64,000 nt of DNA, taken from Steroidobacteraceae bacterium (lineage in GTDB: Bacteria > Pseudomonadota > Gammaproteobacteria > Steroidobacterales > Steroidobacteraceae). Made by a program: the position numbers and the translations under genes. The DNA lies in the NCBI GenBank assembly GCA_025451845.1, contig JANWJS010000021.1, positions 1 to 64,000 of the forward strand, written 5' to 3'. How positions within the stretch are numbered: the stretch's first letter is position 1; every line of letters begins with the position of its first letter. The notes under the pieces were generated by a model. The model searched no databases and was not told the DNA's origin. It saw nothing but the letters and a program-made list of their open reading frames with translations. Below are positions 39,554 to 47,914 of this stretch, piece by piece.

Positions 39554-39775
39554 GATCTCTTCCCGTCCGTCCGCTCCGCGCCAGGCCAAAGCAGCCCTGA
39601 TGGTGCCCCGAAAGGAGCGCATCGATGCCCGGATGGGGGTGGCCGGGGGCGGGAGGATGGGCATAGTCTACCAGGGAGCGGCGGCGCGGCCGGCCTCCAG
39701 AGGATAGAGACCCTTAAAAATCAATAACTTAAATAGAGCCGCGACGGATTGACACTCCGTACGGGGGGTCAGGCC

Positions 39776-39883
39776 CTAGAAGACCAGGTGCCGCCACTCC
39801 GGCCACCGGGCCACGGCGACACCGATACCGATCGAGACGATGAGCAACAGAGTGAGCGTGAGTCCTATGAGAAAGCGTTGCAT
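39776..39883 (-). CDS. Candidate 35-aa single-pass membrane peptide
   Basis: MQRFLIGLTLTLLLIVSIGIGVAVARWPEWRHLVF; hidden as the C-terminus of a long listed ORF. Confidence 0.35.
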   Translation of the reverse strand: MQRFLIGLTLTLLLIVSIGIGVAVARWPEWRHLVF

Positions 39884-39940
39884 TGTTGGACAGGTAAGGC
39901 TCGCGGACGCGGACGCAATGATAGCCCGCTGGCGGGCCGC

Positions 39941-41395
39941 ATGAGTTTGGCCATCTGTCTGCTCGCCGCAGAGGTGGCGCCGCTGTCCAAGACCGGCGGG
40001 CTCGCAGATGTCGCCGGCGCGCTGGCGAAATACCTGACTGGCGCCGGTCACGATGTCCGGCTCTTCACGCCCCTCTATGCGTCCATAGACCGCGCGAGAT
40101 TCCCGGTGCAGCCCGTCGATGAGCTGCAGCACGTGCCGCTGCAGATCGGCCCGCATCACTATGTCTTCTCGGTCGGTACGACCCGGCTTCCCGGGTCCGA
40201 AGCTCGGGTGTACCTGATCGACTGCCCGGTGCTCTATGGGCGGCCGGTGATCTACACGACCGATCCGGACGAGCACTTGAGGTTCCTGGCCTTCACCCGG
40301 GCGGTCCTGGCTGCCTGTCAGCGCATGGGCTGGCCGCCGCAGATTCTGCATTGCAACGACTGGCACACGGCTTTCGGGCCACTGTTCGTCAAGGCGCTGC
40401 TCGCGGGCGACCCGCTTTTCGCGCGCACGCGCTCGGTACTGACGATCCACAACATCGGCTACCAGGGAATTTTCTCGTCCGCGGCCATCGCGGACCTGGA
40501 GCTCGGTCCCAAGAGCTACCTGCTGCACCAGGACGATCTGCGCACGGGCAAGATCAACCCGCTGCGCCATGGGATTCTGTACGCGGACGCGATCACCACA
40601 GTCAGTCCCACACACGCCAGCGAGATCTGCACGGATCAGTACGGGATGGGCCTGCAGGACTCCTTGCGCATGCGCGGGGAGGCGCTGACGGGAATCCTGA
40701 ATGGCGTGGACTACCAGGTGTGGGATCCGCGCATTGACAGATACCTGCCGCAGCATTACGGCGCGGACACTCTTTCGATCAAGGCGGGACTGAAGAGCGC
40801 GTTCATCGAGCGGCTGGGCCTGAGCTTGCCCGTGACGACACCGCTCGCGGGCATGGTCAGCCGGCTGGCCGCGCAGAAGGGCATCGAGCTGATGTTCGAA
40901 TCGCTGCCGCAGGTGTTGGAATGGCGAGATCTGGGCTTCGTGGCGCTGGGGAGCGGCGAGCCGCAATACGAGCGCTTCCTAGCCGAGCTCGAGCGGCGCT
41001 TCCCCGAAAGAGTGGTGTTTCGGCGGGGTTACGACGATGAGCTGTCGCACTGGATCGAGGCCGCCTGCGACATGTTCCTGATGCCCTCGCTCTACGAGCC
41101 GTGCGGACTCAACCAGATGTACAGCCTGCGATACGGCACCGTGCCGATCGTGCGGCGCACGGGCGGCCTCGCGGACTCGGTGGAGGGGTACGACCCTGAT
41201 TCGCGCGCAGGCACCGGCATCGTATTCAGCGACTTCGATTCGGAGGCGCTCGAATGGGCACTCAACACGGCGCTCGACCTGCACGCGCAACCCGAGGAGT
41301 GGCGGCAGATCGTGCGCAACGGCATGGCGAAAGACTTCTCCTGGGAACGGCAGGGTGAGAAGTACGTCGCGATATATCGGCAACTGGCGGCATGA
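39941..41395 (+). CDS. glgA: Glycogen (starch) synthase, GT5
   Basis: AAEVAPLSKTGGLADVAGALAKYL; LHCNDWHTAF; PSLYEPCGLNQMYSLRYGTVPIVRRTGGLADSV. Confidence 0.96.
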   Translation: MSLAICLLAAEVAPLSKTGGLADVAGALAKYLTGAGHDVRLFTPLYASIDRARFPVQPVDELQHVPLQIGPHHYVFSVGTTRLPGSEARVYLIDCPVLYGRPVIYTTDPDEHLRFLAFTRAVLAACQRMGWPPQILHCNDWHTAFGPLFVKALLAGDPLFARTRSVLTIHNIGYQGIFSSAAIADLELGPKSYLLHQDDLRTGKINPLRHGILYADAITTVSPTHASEICTDQYGMGLQDSLRMRGEALTGILNGVDYQVWDPRIDRYLPQHYGADTLSIKAGLKSAFIERLGLSLPVTTPLAGMVSRLAAQKGIELMFESLPQVLEWRDLGFVALGSGEPQYERFLAELERRFPERVVFRRGYDDELSHWIEAACDMFLMPSLYEPCGLNQMYSLRYGTVPIVRRTGGLADSVEGYDPDSRAGTGIVFSDFDSEALEWALNTALDLHAQPEEWRQIVRNGMAKDFSWERQGEKYVAIYRQLAA

Positions 41396-41584
41396 GCTGC
41401 TCCGGAGAAATCCCGTTGCCGCAGTGAACTGCGCGGCACTGCGCGACTTCACCGCCATTACTCTGTTGGGACGCACGACCCGCGCGAGTTTGCGCGACGG
41501 GCCGCGGTTCGCAGCCGTGATCGTGAGTTGTCTGCCTCTTGAGACATTGCGCTCGCGCACGAGGTAGCGTTTACTGTCTGCCAA

Positions 41585-41665
41585 GCCAAGGGCAAACCCG
41601 CCGTAAGGCGGGGACGCAAAGCCTCCGGTCTGAGTTTTCAGACAGCGGGGCTGCCGGTTCGAAGC
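41585..41665 (+). ncRNA. Cyclic-di-GMP-I (GEMM-I) riboswitch aptamer
   Basis: ccaaGGGCAAACCCGCCGTAAGGCGGGGACGCAAAGCCTCCGGTCTGAGTTTTCAGACAGCGGGGCTGCCGG; GNRA-capped P2, ACGCAAAGCCTCCGG core, P3 with AGCGGGG receptor side. Confidence 0.92.
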
Positions 41666-41785
41666 CGCCATCGAGCGGCGTAGCGCCGTCGCGCGATCCG
41701 AGCGGCTCGACTCGCACTCGAGCTGCATCCGGCGTGTTTGCCGCCCCTGGTGAAATCAATTCGGGTTTCCGTACGGGGTGGTCAC

Positions 41786-42703
41786 ATGTTCCCTGCAAAA
41801 AAAGCTGCAGCGCGCCTGCAGCATGCGGCGCTCTGCGCGCTGGCGTCTGTTTCCCTGCTCTCCTCGGCGCTCGCACGCGCCAATACTCTGCCGACGATCA
41901 GCGGGGCGCCGGCCACCAGCGTCATGGTGCAGCACGCCTACGCCTTTCAGCCGTCCGCCGCCGATTCCGATCACGACAAGCTGACGTTCTCCATCAGGAA
42001 CAAGCCCTGGTGGGCGGCCTTCAGCTATTCCACGGGGCGGCTGTCGGGTACGCCCGAACACACCTCCACTTTCGGCAACATCTCCATTTGCGTGAGCGAC
42101 GGGACGTCTCGCAGGTGCCTGCCGACGTTCGGGCTGAAGGTTTTCGCGCCCAGTGCTTTTCCGGTCATTTCCGGGACGCCGGCCACCGCCGTGACCGCCG
42201 GCAACGCATATTCATTCAAGCCCACGGCCCATGACCCCAACGGCATGCGGATCACCTTCGGAATCTTCGACAAGCCCAACTGGCTCAACTTCAATCACAC
42301 GACCGGCCAGCTGTCCGGCACGCCGACGGCGGCGGACGTAGGCAAGTACGCCCACATCGGCGTCACCGCTTCCAACGGCCTTCACCAGGCGGCTCTGCCC
42401 TCCTTCTCGATCACGGTAAACTCGGGAGGAGCCCAGCTGCCACCGGGCAACGTGACGATCTCCTGGACGCCGCCCACGGAGAACACCAACGGCACCACGC
42501 TGACCAACCTCGCGGGCTACCATCTCTATTACGGGACGAGTCAGTCCAGCCTCAATCAGAAGGTGAACATCACCAACGCCGGGCTGGCGAGCTACGTGGT
42601 GAGCAACCTGACGTCGGGAAAGTGGTACTTCTCGCTCACGGCGGTGAACAGCCAGGGCGTGGAGAGCCCGCGCTCGGCGGTTCTGACCACCGCAGTCGAG
42701 TAG
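41786..42703 (+). CDS. Secreted protein with putative Ig (He_PIG/cadherin-like) repeats and a C-terminal FN3-like domain
   Basis: Signal peptide ...SALARA; two repeats (ISGTPATxVxxGxAYxFxP...GxLSGTPxxxDVG); TWTPPTENTNG...YHLYYGTS FN3-like. Confidence 0.85.
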   Translation: MFPAKKAAARLQHAALCALASVSLLSSALARANTLPTISGAPATSVMVQHAYAFQPSAADSDHDKLTFSIRNKPWWAAFSYSTGRLSGTPEHTSTFGNISICVSDGTSRRCLPTFGLKVFAPSAFPVISGTPATAVTAGNAYSFKPTAHDPNGMRITFGIFDKPNWLNFNHTTGQLSGTPTAADVGKYAHIGVTASNGLHQAALPSFSITVNSGGAQLPPGNVTISWTPPTENTNGTTLTNLAGYHLYYGTSQSSLNQKVNITNAGLASYVVSNLTSGKWYFSLTAVNSQGVESPRSAVLTTAVE

Positions 42704-42774
42704 CCCTTCAATGGAAGAGCATGTGAGGCATTTCGAATGAAATCAACATGCCGCCGCCCAGCCGGTGGCAGCCA

Positions 42775-43242
42775 TCAGCGCAGGGCGAATGTGCCGCTCT
42801 GCTCGAACGGGATCGAGAGCAGCCAGCCGTGGGCGAGTTCCACAGTGCCCTTCATGCGGTAGTCGATGCCCTGGCCGCGGGGCTTGCTGAAGAGGGTGAA
42901 GAGCGCGCCGGCGGCGTTCGCGTTGACATCCATGTTGAATTCAGCCGTGCCGAGCGCCGGAACGACGAAGCTGGCGTCCGACGCGCCGGTGGCGAATGCC
43001 TCGCCACCGAGGTAGACAGTGTAGGAAAGGCCCTTGACGGGGAGGCTGCGGTTATTGGGATTCTCGACGCGCATGCGGACCCGCAGTTGCTGCTGGAGGA
43101 GGTTGGCCCTGAGCACCTCGATGTCGACGATGGAGAGTCTCGGGGTCTGGAGCTTCGGCAGAAATAGCGCGCAACCGGCGAGCGCGACGACAATGAAAAG
43201 AACCGCTACGGAACGCATGGCCCGGATGTTAGCGAACATCAC
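42775..43242 (-). CDS. LEA14-type (LEA_2/WHy domain) lipoprotein
   Basis: Lipobox VALAGC; RVRMRVENPNNRSLPVKGLSYTVYLGGEAFATG. Confidence 0.85.
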   Translation of the reverse strand: MMFANIRAMRSVAVLFIVVALAGCALFLPKLQTPRLSIVDIEVLRANLLQQQLRVRMRVENPNNRSLPVKGLSYTVYLGGEAFATGASDASFVVPALGTAEFNMDVNANAAGALFTLFSKPRGQGIDYRMKGTVELAHGWLLSIPFEQSGTFALR

Positions 43243-44588
43243 GCGCGCCCGTACGAGCCGTTGAGTTGCGCGAAATGCCGGGCAAGATCTCCTGTCAGCG
43301 CGTCCGCGGGCAGGCGCCAGAGCCAGTTGCCCTGGACGGTGCCGGGTGTGTTGAGCCGCGCCTCCGAGCCGAGGCCGAGAAGGTCCTGGGCGGGGACGAT
43401 GGCGAGCTGGCCGACGGACCCCAGGGCGGCGCGGATCAGCGCCTCCGGCATGGAACCGGGCGCCACGCGTAGCATGGAGTCGACGCGGCGGCGCGTCTGC
43501 TCATCGAGGCTGCGATACCAGCCCAGCGCGGTGTCGTTGTCATGCGTCCCGGTGTAGACGACGCTGTCGTGCTCGTGCATGTGCGGGAGATGCGGGTTGT
43601 CGCTGTCGCCGCTGAAGGCGAATTGCAGGACCCGCATGCCGGGCAAGCCGAAGCCCTTGCGCAGCGCCACGACGTCTTCGGTGATGACGCCGAGGTCCTC
43701 CGCGAGGATCGGCAGGCCGCCCAGCTCGTCCATGAGAATCCGCAGGAGATCTTCGCCAGGCGTCAGGTGCCACTCTCCCCCGCGGGCATCCGCGGCGCCG
43801 GCCGGTACGGCCCAGTGCGCGGCAAGGGCCCGAAAATGATCAATGCGCAGCAGGTCGGCACGGTCGAGCTGCTCGAGCACGCGCGCGCGCCAAAAGGCGA
43901 AGTTGTCGCGGCGCATCATCTGCCAGTCATAGAGAGGATTGCCCCAGAGCTGCCCGGTCCGCGAGAAATAATCGGGTGGGACGCCGGCCATGGCGGCGGG
44001 ACGTCCCTCGTCGTCCAGCTGAAACTGCTCGGGATGAGCCCACGTCTCGGCGGAGTGCGGCGCGACATAGAACGGCAGATCGCCGACGATCCGAACGCCC
44101 CGCATCCGGGCGTGCTCGCGCAGCCGGCGCCACTGGACGAAGAAGGCGAACTGCTCACGCTTGGCGCGCTGCAGCTCGGCCGCGCGCTCGCGTCCCACCC
44201 GATCCAGTGCAGCGGGGGTCCGGTCGCGCACGTCCGTGGGCCACGTCCACCATACTGCGCCGGAATGCGCGGTGCTCAGGACCTCAAACAGTGCGTAGTC
44301 ATCCAGCCACTGCTCGGTTTCGTTTACAAACGCTGCGTACTCTGCGGGTAATACATCCGGTATCTCCGCCGGGTCGAGGAAAGCAGGACTGCCGGCAAAG
44401 TCGGAGCGGACCCAATAGGGGGAGCCGTCGGGCCCCGTCGGGCCGGTAGGCAACACCTGCCAGACGGTGAAGCCGGCGTCCGCCAGCCAGTCAATGAACG
44501 CTCGCCCACCGCGGCCCAGCGGAGCCTCGAGCGAGCCGAGATGTAGCAGTACTCCGGCACGACGTCGGTCGAGCACGGGTAAGCGCAT
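43239..44588 (-). CDS. malQ: 4-alpha-glucanotransferase, GH77
   Basis: GVLLHLGSLEAP; FVQWRRLREHARMRGVRIVGDLPFYVA; LRIDHFRAL; LAEDLGVIT; YTGTHDNDTALGW. Confidence 0.95.
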   Translation of the reverse strand: MRLPVLDRRRAGVLLHLGSLEAPLGRGGRAFIDWLADAGFTVWQVLPTGPTGPDGSPYWVRSDFAGSPAFLDPAEIPDVLPAEYAAFVNETEQWLDDYALFEVLSTAHSGAVWWTWPTDVRDRTPAALDRVGRERAAELQRAKREQFAFFVQWRRLREHARMRGVRIVGDLPFYVAPHSAETWAHPEQFQLDDEGRPAAMAGVPPDYFSRTGQLWGNPLYDWQMMRRDNFAFWRARVLEQLDRADLLRIDHFRALAAHWAVPAGAADARGGEWHLTPGEDLLRILMDELGGLPILAEDLGVITEDVVALRKGFGLPGMRVLQFAFSGDSDNPHLPHMHEHDSVVYTGTHDNDTALGWYRSLDEQTRRRVDSMLRVAPGSMPEALIRAALGSVGQLAIVPAQDLLGLGSEARLNTPGTVQGNWLWRLPADALTGDLARHFAQLNGSYGRA

Positions 44589-44659
44589 GTCGAATACTCC
44601 TTCATAGCATGCATAACCGACGACCAGGCACATGGATGCGCCCCGCCGCCGCAGGTTGC

Positions 44660-44822
44660 GGAGGTCGCGAGCAAAAACCGCGCTTTTGCTTGCGACCGCG
44701 CTGGGCCGGGCAGGATGCCCGGATCCGGCGCCTTAAACAACATGGCGCAGCCTCGGGCAAAAAAACTGCGCACTTTGCCCGAGCCAGCGGGTGGATCGCG
44801 CAGGAGGCCGGATCCAGGCGCT
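44660..44822 (-). repeat. Tandem palindromic element, family B, between the GH57 gene and malQ
   Basis: ggtcgcgagcaaaaaccgcgcttttgcttgcgacc and ctcgggcaaaaaaactgcgcactttgcccgag hairpins, each followed by a GC-rich ...gcaggatgcccggatcc / gcaggaggccggatcc arm. Confidence 0.75.
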
Positions 44823-46610
44823 TCAACTGGCGGAGGCCCGCCGCATGACGCCGCCGTGCTCCGGGCTGCCGCGACCCACGGAAATCGGCTGTGCCAGACT
44901 CTCGGGCGGCGGCAGGCCGAGAAGGCGGTAGAGAACGACGAGCTGGCGCCGGTACAGGCTGTCGAACTGGCTCACGGCATCGGCCGGGTTGTAGTCTCCA
45001 AACCACCAGAACCAGTCGGAACTCTCGCAGAGGGCGAGCTGGCGCTCGACCGCGGCCCGCTGCGCAGTATCGAGGGCGCCCGATGACAGCACGCGGTCGA
45101 AGGCGAGCTTGGCCTCGCAGAGAAGATCCCAGGCGCGATTCTTGGCTGGATCGCCCATCCAGGTAGCGAGCGTGCCGTGTACCCAGCTCCCCGCCACTAC
45201 GTCCGGCAGGGGGAGCGGCTCCAGTCCGCGCGCGACGCAATCAGACAGCGTGGTCAGCTCCAGCAGCGGGTGCGCGGCCAGGAGCGAATACAGCGCGCGC
45301 AGGAAGTAGAGGCCATTGAACGGGTAGTGCTCCCACGCATTTTCGCCATCAAGGGCGATCAGCACGGCGTGACGGACGCGCCTCTCGGAAGCGCTTCCCG
45401 GTGTGCTTTCCGCCTCATGAAGCTGCGTCACGGATGACTCCGCGGGCACGGAGGGCTCGGCGTACTGCCTGGCGAGATGCGCGAGCTCGTTGACGAGATT
45501 GTGAGCAGCATCGTCACCGTGCCACGTCGCGTACGTGAAGCCGACGAGGTCGGAAAGTGTGTCGTCGCGAAAGAATTCGACCATGTTACCGCCGGGCAGG
45601 CGGTAGGGTTGGTTGTAGAAGCGCGAATCGCGCGCGGACTTGGCATCGCTGCGAGCAAGAGCGCCCTGCAGGACGTTGGCGCTGCTCGCCGCCCACTTGA
45701 AGCCGGCGCGATCGAGCAGCTCCAGCGTGCCGCGGCTGATTGCCCCCTCCGACGGCCAGCAGCCGCTCGGCTCCGTGCCGAACGCCTGTTTGAAAACGCG
45801 GAGCGACTCCCGCACGTGCCACTGCGCGCGCTCCGCCCCCCCCGGATAGGACGAGTGTTGCGGCAACGGCATGTTGGGTACGGCATCGCGTGCGGCCTGG
45901 AAGTCGAGCAGCAGCGGTATGATCGGATGCCCGTATGGGGTTATTGACAGCTCGCACTGCCCGCGCTCGGATAGCTTTCGATAGCGCGGCACGATGGAAG
46001 CGACGAGGTCTCCGACCAGCGACAGGAGGCCGCGCCGCTGCTCGAGCGAGAACGCCCGCCCCTGTTGGGTGAGGCTGCTCACGAAAGTGTCCGAGCGGCG
46101 CACGGTTTCGCCCAACCAGGCAAGGTGGTACCACACGGCGAGATCGTGGATGAGCTGATCGGAGGCGTAGTTCACGCGCTCCACGGTGGCGAGCGTCTCG
46201 GCCAGCGTGGCGAGCTCGAGGTACGGGCCGAAGCGCTCGATCATCTGCTTGCGCTGGGCCTTGAGGCACGCCCGCAGCAGCTCCAGGCGCTCCGCGGGAT
46301 CGGACGGCACCGGATCCGGACCCAGGAGCGCGAGCACGGGGTCCGGCAGAGGGTTGCCGGCGCGCAGGTGATCGGCCACGCGGCGCGCGATCTCCTCGAT
46401 CTGCTCGAGCAGCACGGGCGTGAAGTTGACTACCGCGCGCGCTGCCGGGTTCGCCTCCAAGTGCGCGGCCATGTCGGTGTAATCCTTGATCGCGTGGAGG
46501 TAGGTCCACGGCAACACATATCGTCCTGTGAGTGCGTCACGGTACTGTGGCTGGTGCATATGCCACAGGAGGACGACGGGCAGGCGTGGGTTGGATCCCA
46601 TGGGACTCAA
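44823..46610 (-). CDS. Glycoside hydrolase family 57 protein
   Basis: PVVLLWHMHQPQYRD; ESLRVFKQAFGTEPSGCWPSEGAIS; LIALDGENAWEHYPFNG. Confidence 0.92.
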   Translation of the reverse strand: MSPMGSNPRLPVVLLWHMHQPQYRDALTGRYVLPWTYLHAIKDYTDMAAHLEANPAARAVVNFTPVLLEQIEEIARRVADHLRAGNPLPDPVLALLGPDPVPSDPAERLELLRACLKAQRKQMIERFGPYLELATLAETLATVERVNYASDQLIHDLAVWYHLAWLGETVRRSDTFVSSLTQQGRAFSLEQRRGLLSLVGDLVASIVPRYRKLSERGQCELSITPYGHPIIPLLLDFQAARDAVPNMPLPQHSSYPGGAERAQWHVRESLRVFKQAFGTEPSGCWPSEGAISRGTLELLDRAGFKWAASSANVLQGALARSDAKSARDSRFYNQPYRLPGGNMVEFFRDDTLSDLVGFTYATWHGDDAAHNLVNELAHLARQYAEPSVPAESSVTQLHEAESTPGSASERRVRHAVLIALDGENAWEHYPFNGLYFLRALYSLLAAHPLLELTTLSDCVARGLEPLPLPDVVAGSWVHGTLATWMGDPAKNRAWDLLCEAKLAFDRVLSSGALDTAQRAAVERQLALCESSDWFWWFGDYNPADAVSQFDSLYRRQLVVLYRLLGLPPPESLAQPISVGRGSPEHGGVMRRASAS

Positions 46611-47914
46611 GGGGACAGCCGGCGAAGCATGTCAGGGGTCACGAGCACGACACCTCTCTCGGTAACGACGAACCGTCGGGCATCGTCCACTCTGTCGAGA
46701 CCGATGCGCATGCCGTCGGGAATCTCGCAGCCCTCATCGATGATGGCCCCGCGGATCTGGCAGCCGCTGCCGATGAGGGCATGCGGCAGGACGACGGAAC
46801 GCTCGATCACCGTGCGCTCTTCCACGCGCACGTCGGAGAAGAGCAGCGACTCCCTCACCATCGCCCCGGAGATGATGCAGCCGCCCGAGACCATTGAGTT
46901 GATGGCTGTGCCGCGGCGTCCGTCCTCGTCGAGGATGAACTTGGCCGGCGGCTGATGCATCTGATAGGTCCAAATGGGCCAGTCCTCGTCGTAGATGTTG
47001 AGCTCGGGCCTGACGTGCACCAGCTCGAGATTCGCCTCGTAGTAGGCGTCGATCGTCCCCACGTCGCGCCAGTAGCTTTGCGCACGTGTCTTGACGTCTT
47101 GGAAGGGATACGCGAACACCTGCAGGGTGCTGCTGAGAGTCTTCGGGATGATGTTCTTGCCGAAATCGTGAGCGGAAGCATCGTCGACTGCGTCCTCTTC
47201 CAGTAGACGCTGCAGAAGACGCGTGTTGAAAACGTAAATGCCCATCGAAGCGAGAATCGTGTCCGGCCGGCCCGGAAGCGTATCCGGGACGGCAGGCTTC
47301 TCCGAGAACCGGGTCACCCGGTTCCATTCCGTCGCAGTGAGGACGCCGAAGTGCCGCGATTCGCCCGCGGGCACTTCGACCACGCCGACCGTGATGTCAG
47401 CGCCCTTCTCCACGTGGTAGGCGATCATCGGACCATAGTCCATCTTGTAGATGTGATCTCCTGCAAGCACGAGCACGTGCTTGGGCCTATGGGCGAGGAT
47501 GAGGTCAATGTTCTGGTGGACGGCATCGGCCGTGCCCCGGTACCACACCGGACCCTTCTGCTGCTGGGCCGGGATGGTCTCGATGAATTCGCCGAACTCG
47601 CCGCGCAGGTAGCTCCAGCCACGCTGCACGTGCGCGATCAGTGACTGGGCCTTGTACTGGGTGAGAATCGAGATCTGGCGTATGCCCGAATTGACGCAGT
47701 TCGAGAGCACGAAATCGACGATGCGGAACTTGCCGCCAAAGGGGGTCGCCGGCTTGCAGCGGTGCTCGGTGAGGTCCTTCAGGCGCTCCCCGCGCCCGCC
47801 GGCCATGATCACGGCAAGGGTGCCGCCCGTCAGGCGGCTCACATAACGTCCGGAAGAGGCGCGCGCAGGCTGTCGAGGCATGATAGACCGGGCAGCGGGC
47901 TTGTTAGGGTCCAA
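46607..47914 (-). CDS. glgC: Glucose-1-phosphate adenylyltransferase
   Basis: VIMAGGRGERLKDLTEHRCKPATPFGGKFRIVDFVLSN; GTADAVHQN; LVLAGDHIYKMDY. Confidence 0.97.
   Translation of the reverse strand: MDPNKPAARSIMPRQPARASSGRYVSRLTGGTLAVIMAGGRGERLKDLTEHRCKPATPFGGKFRIVDFVLSNCVNSGIRQISILTQYKAQSLIAHVQRGWSYLRGEFGEFIETIPAQQQKGPVWYRGTADAVHQNIDLILAHRPKHVLVLAGDHIYKMDYGPMIAYHVEKGADITVGVVEVPAGESRHFGVLTATEWNRVTRFSEKPAVPDTLPGRPDTILASMGIYVFNTRLLQRLLEEDAVDDASAHDFGKNIIPKTLSSTLQVFAYPFQDVKTRAQSYWRDVGTIDAYYEANLELVHVRPELNIYDEDWPIWTYQMHQPPAKFILDEDGRRGTAINSMVSGGCIISGAMVRESLLFSDVRVEERTVIERSVVLPHALIGSGCQIRGAIIDEGCEIPDGMRIGLDRVDDARRFVVTERGVVLVTPDMLRRLSP

Follow-up and report, generated by a model that had tools for sequence, protein, structure and literature searches.

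A c-di-GMP-I riboswitch upstream of a secreted Ig/FN3-like surface protein gene in a Steroidobacteraceae bacterium and its possible action on translation

Does c-di-GMP control a surface protein gene of this Steroidobacteraceae bacterium through the leader of its mRNA, and if so, at which step and in which direction? The question is raised by the leader of a gene for a secreted Ig/FN3-like protein in the 64-kb stretch of DNA analyzed here (64,000 nucleotides; hereafter the window), which a preliminary description had assigned to the c-di-GMP-I (GEMM-I) class of riboswitches. The Infernal search with RF01051, set beforehand as the test that could refute this assignment, returned a match of 75.0 bits at 41581-41658 on the forward strand, far over the gathering score of 35, and the GEMM-I aptamer is the sole Rfam match in the whole window. 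We regard the classification as correct and lean towards the view that this is an ordinary c-di-GMP-I riboswitch with which the mRNA for the surface protein begins and which acts on translation (Table 1).

Table 1. Features of the riboswitch locus, in window coordinates
Feature	Position	Strand	Basis
Candidate sigma-70-type promoter: TTGCGC (41547-41552), 17 nt, TTTACT (41570-41575)	41547-41575	+	by eye
c-di-GMP-I (GEMM-I) riboswitch aptamer	41582-41659	+	RF03167, RF01051, alignment and base table
J1 strand GCCAAGGGC, holds G19-G21	41585-41593	+	complementary to anti-SD segment 41743-41751; constrained fold, duplex scan, pair count
P2 helix with GUAA tetraloop (loop 41603-41606)	41597-41612	+	sequence, folds; CCCGCC-GUAA-GGCGGG
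P3 helix; usual 11-nt tetraloop receptor absent	41620-41652	+	folds, comparison of 70 aptamers
Predicted expression platform hairpin: anti-SD and SD, AUG in outer helix	41724-41797	+	folds, shuffles
Target gene, 305 aa: signal peptide, two He_PIG, C-terminal FN3	41786-42703	+	Pfam, AlphaFold2

In Vc2 numbering, the Rfam alignments of both matching families (RF01051 and RF03167) place the contact bases G20 at 41591, A47 at 41618 and C92 at 41654, and the long-range pair C44-G83 is present as well (41615 and 41645). The base equivalent to G20 decides between cyclic dinucleotides in GEMM-I aptamers (PMC9262584). Because of G20, A47 and C92 the window aptamer is, as judged from its bases, of the ordinary c-di-GMP type; A47 occurs in 68 of 70 aptamers compared, that is, in all that are readable at this position, the remaining two being unreadable. 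P1 is weak. The GTAA tetraloop named in the preliminary description is indeed found as a GNRA loop (GUAA) on P2, but the receptor side claimed along with it is not there: P3 is an uninterrupted plain helix with a small closing loop (GUCUGA-GUUU-UCAGAC), and both the folds and the 70-aptamer comparison show that it lacks the CUAA...UAUG tetraloop receptor, a feature common in the class and not obligatory. Most relatives with a GAAA loop have this receptor; among the 70 aptamers, from this genome and its relatives, it is present with 37 of the 52 GAAA loops and missing with the other GNRA loops, ten in all; these ten aptamers all belong to Ig/FN3 genes. The receptorless GEMM-I aptamers are a small subtype and not a new class.

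The start codon expected about 120 nt downstream was located 127 nt past the aptamer on the same strand (AUG at 41786), and the predicted architecture of the product, a secreted protein with a signal peptide, two Ig-like repeats and an FN3 domain, was borne out by two He_PIG Ig-like domains (Pfam PF05345; residues 33-121 and 126-212, approximately; E 4.1e-16) and one FN3 domain (PF00041; residues 222-302; E 2.8e-06), all over the cut-off, the signal peptide being judged by eye. An AlphaFold2 model based on nine sequences consists of three beta domains with a mean pLDDT of 86. A fold search returned generic Ig/FN3 proteins, including domains like those of the staphylococcal adhesin SraP, at low TM-scores, and the best E of a PDB sequence search was only 0.02. 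A role in attachment is plausible. Within 39749-47914, the gene adjoins a glycogen/maltodextrin cluster, in which glgA-like, malQ-like, GH57-like and glgC-like genes were recognized from their translations. Because a strict-consensus scan found no promoter, the -35/-10 pair upstream of the aptamer is listed as a candidate; a similar pair with the same spacing lies just upstream of most relatives' aptamers, and the mRNA would begin at about 41582 if this promoter were used.

A scan of the forward strand between aptamer and start codon found no intrinsic terminator, and a terminator-based expression platform was discarded for this reason. The preliminary description had suspected the platform in the inverted repeats of region 41666-41785. 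The repeats are real and this placement is supported, but the key one overruns 41785 and takes in the start codon. It forms a hairpin with a minimum free energy (MFE) of -31.8 kcal/mol (z -2.66), and none of 200 shuffles was equally stable. Within the hairpin an anti-SD sequence, GCCGCCCC (41740-41747), pairs with the SD sequence GGGGUGG (41775-41781), and an outer helix (41784-41790) encloses the AUG. Of 30 Ig/FN3 leaders, 28 keep the start site more closed than shuffled leaders do, and in near relatives the arms of the SD helix differ while the pairing is kept (CUGCCC/GGGGUAG and CCACCU/AGGUGG). Two pairs of this helix change on both sides among five sequences; since 60 of 500 shuffles reach the same score, the covariation is suggestive only.

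When the SD was forced open in a constrained fold, the anti-SD segment paired with the J1 strand of the aptamer. In the window leader, the computed cost of opening the SD is 11.5 kcal/mol when the aptamer strand is available but 15.2 kcal/mol when this strand is masked, a difference of 3.7 kcal/mol, and 14 of 17 SPOR-type leaders lean the same way. In the J1:anti-SD helix 86% of the cells are paired, compared with at most 54% when the strands are slid, and two pairs have changed on both sides; the match is seen, with both-sided changes, in leaders of three relatives (G001, G005, G010). Taken by itself, the window leader has a J1 duplex no stronger than that of shuffles (p 0.48). Among leaders with a loop other than GAAA the pairing occurs in 7 of 15 (2.7 expected), as against 4 of 15 leaders with a GAAA loop (3.0 expected), and for this reason we propose it for the window-like subset only. 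As a general mechanism it was rejected: conspicuous among the seven window-like Ig/FN3 leaders examined first, it faded once there were 30. Another candidate competitor, the GGGG of the aptamer's P3 strand, appears in the MFE structure of the SPOR-like leader on contig 20, is weak in the window, and was likewise set aside.

Sequence and computation support the aptamer with its G20, A47 and C92, the hairpin and the complementarity; that c-di-GMP binds, that switching follows and that its sign is OFF, we infer. The anti-SD strand, in the resting fold, (41740-41749) would pair with the SD and enclose the AUG. As long as the aptamer is empty, J1, including the guanine-contacting G20, could pair with the anti-SD strand and help to open the start site; with c-di-GMP bound, J1 would be held in the aptamer, the anti-SD would be free to bury the SD, and translation would fall. 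Our best guess is that c-di-GMP represses translation, as it does in Vc2. A further proposal is tentative and, in our estimation, rather unlikely to hold: that the receptorless subtype (GUAA, GCAA or GUGA loop and plain P3) is tied to one Ig/FN3 family in the order, and that c-di-GMP and the anti-SD contend in it for J1, not via P1. Vc2 of Vibrio cholerae is described in PMC9262584, which cites Inuzuka 2018, as switching translation OFF by masking a remote ribosome-binding site. As far as this description goes, the window element resembles Vc2 in the aptamer class, in G20, A47 and C92, and in the proposed translational control by masking of the ribosome-binding site at a distance; it differs in having GUAA instead of GAAA, no 11-nt receptor in P3, a weak P1, another target gene, and J1 as the proposed switching strand.

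The same riboswitch and gene might also constitute an ON switch, in which c-di-GMP raises the amount of surface protein through a rearrangement or an effect on mRNA stability unseen in equilibrium folding. We regard this as possible, although the less likely direction: attachment is normally favoured by c-di-GMP, and Vc1, the GEMM-I riboswitch of the adhesin gene gbpA, acts positively (PMC4744006), but no alternative pairing was found that would let the bound aptamer disrupt the SD hairpin, and opening of the SD is cheaper, not dearer, with the aptamer strand free. The parallel with Vc1 consists in a GEMM-I aptamer upstream of a secreted surface-attachment protein, a role plausible for the window protein; positive regulation has been shown for Vc1, and GbpA is an unrelated chitin-binding protein. 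The SD hairpin of the window is predicted to be closed in both states at equilibrium. The OFF model is thus not forced, and given the stability of the hairpin any switching would have to be kinetic.

Alternatively, the aptamer could be a decayed relic and the leader constitutive. This is improbable, given that all contact bases and helices of the window copy are intact and that the pairing of GEMM-I with the Ig/FN3 gene family has been kept across the order. Among 40 genomes, the window's own being one, the search found GEMM-I in 34, and 17 homologues of the window protein (own genome again counted) have a GEMM-I aptamer just upstream on the same strand. It precedes the Ig/FN3 gene at 8 of 20 loci found by their FN3 domain in named genomes, a ninth preceding a neighbouring Ig/FN3 gene, and at 13 of 20 loci drawn order-wide from 246 genomes. 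On these three counts, the pairing is far beyond chance. What speaks for a relic comes from the same genome, where both GEMM-I aptamers before the FN3 lipoproteins of contig 9 are degenerate. There, two adjacent paralogous lipoprotein genes (L019; 95736-95823 and 96481-96566 in genome coordinates) each have an aptamer of their own, with A20, altered junctions and scores of 56.8 and 33.5 bits; because G20 is found in the related L080 aptamer, they look derived, either decaying or shifted in ligand preference. The FN3 domain of the window protein is 52-54% identical to that of both lipoproteins.

Several other arrangements of GEMM-I were noted among the relatives. Tandem aptamers 120-160 nt apart stand before a single Ig/FN3-type gene at L209 (405-693), L088 (408-734) and L154 (genome G034, contig C28, 111525-111851). 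Two genomes of the same order, G030 and G033, have 21 and 15 GEMM-I matches (e.g. L158, L159, L160), many of them aptamers of about 114 nt with an extended P3 ahead of varied genes for apparently secreted proteins. In the same genus, a GEMM-I aptamer stands before a gene whose product, judged by eye, resembles a secreted cellulase (GH5-like; L116, genome G005, contig C124).

A c-di-GMP-I-GGC variant with altered recognition, which is what the first Rfam match would imply (cmscan reports RF03167 at 41582-41659 on the forward strand with 71.7 bits, E 5.2e-15, over a cut-off of 59), is very improbable, as the RF01051 bit score is higher and the RF03167 consensus has G at position 47 (GACGCGAA) where the window has A (GACGCAAA). 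With GGC read as bases 20, 47 and 92, the label fails at its defining base and most likely stems from the short P3 and not from the recognition bases; a receptorless P3 common to both plausibly accounts for the better E-value of RF03167.

The ordinary c-di-GMP-I aptamer of the window is one of seven GEMM-I matches in the 4.4-Mb genome, six of which are above the RF01051 cut-off. Three precede FN3-domain proteins, namely the window gene and the two contig 9 lipoproteins; those on contigs 20 and 11 precede two paralogues in which a SPOR signature is faint, that on contig 27 an M23 peptidase ahead of secA, and that on contig 46 pilM at the head of the pil operon. SPOR-like, M23, pilM and Ig/FN3 targets recur in genomes of the same genus. 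The pilM-operon aptamer (L018; contig 46, 9045) has G20 and a leader of about 300 nt. The M23-peptidase aptamer has A20 at L102, L137, L142 and L145 (G001, G016, G017 and G019) and G20 in other species of the genus, a pattern suggesting that the selectivity base has changed repeatedly. There are 32 GGDEF and 3 PilZ domains in the genome; GHxxGD has its usual form at all 21 GGDEF sites read, and the Hypr serine was found at none of them. Together with the G20 of the window this led us to reject cGAMP (GEMM-Ib, A20) as the ligand.

In Geobacter sulfurreducens, a GEMM riboswitch lies upstream of the FN3 protein KN400_1971 (PMC13194489). GEMM-I before an FN3 gene is thus already known, and the window element, which likewise precedes a gene for an FN3-domain surface protein, is not a new kind, although Geobacter belongs to another phylum and also uses GEMM-I of the cGAMP type, in contrast to the G20 and the 21 Hypr-free GGDEF sites here. 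The GEMM-I riboswitch of Geobacter pilM senses cGAMP (PMC9262584); it corresponds in position to the contig 46 element, whereas the pilM aptamers here have G20 and are, by this base, of the c-di-GMP type. Our literature search found no paper joining riboswitch, c-di-GMP and Ig domain.

The link to biofilm drawn in the preliminary description may exist, and finds some support in the other members of the set (pilM, M23, SPOR-like proteins and FN3 lipoproteins) and in the 32 GGDEF domains. Jointly, the seven elements seem to subject the genes for pili, cell wall and surface proteins to one signal. They point to a c-di-GMP riboregulon comprising type IV pilus assembly (pilM), the M23 peptidase next to secA, SPOR-like proteins and Ig/FN3 proteins. 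The switch itself is textbook, and the useful part is this set of putatively co-regulated, mostly uncharacterised surface genes. If the contest between J1 and the anti-SD is right, it would offer GEMM-I aptamers a simple means of controlling translation that does not depend on P1.
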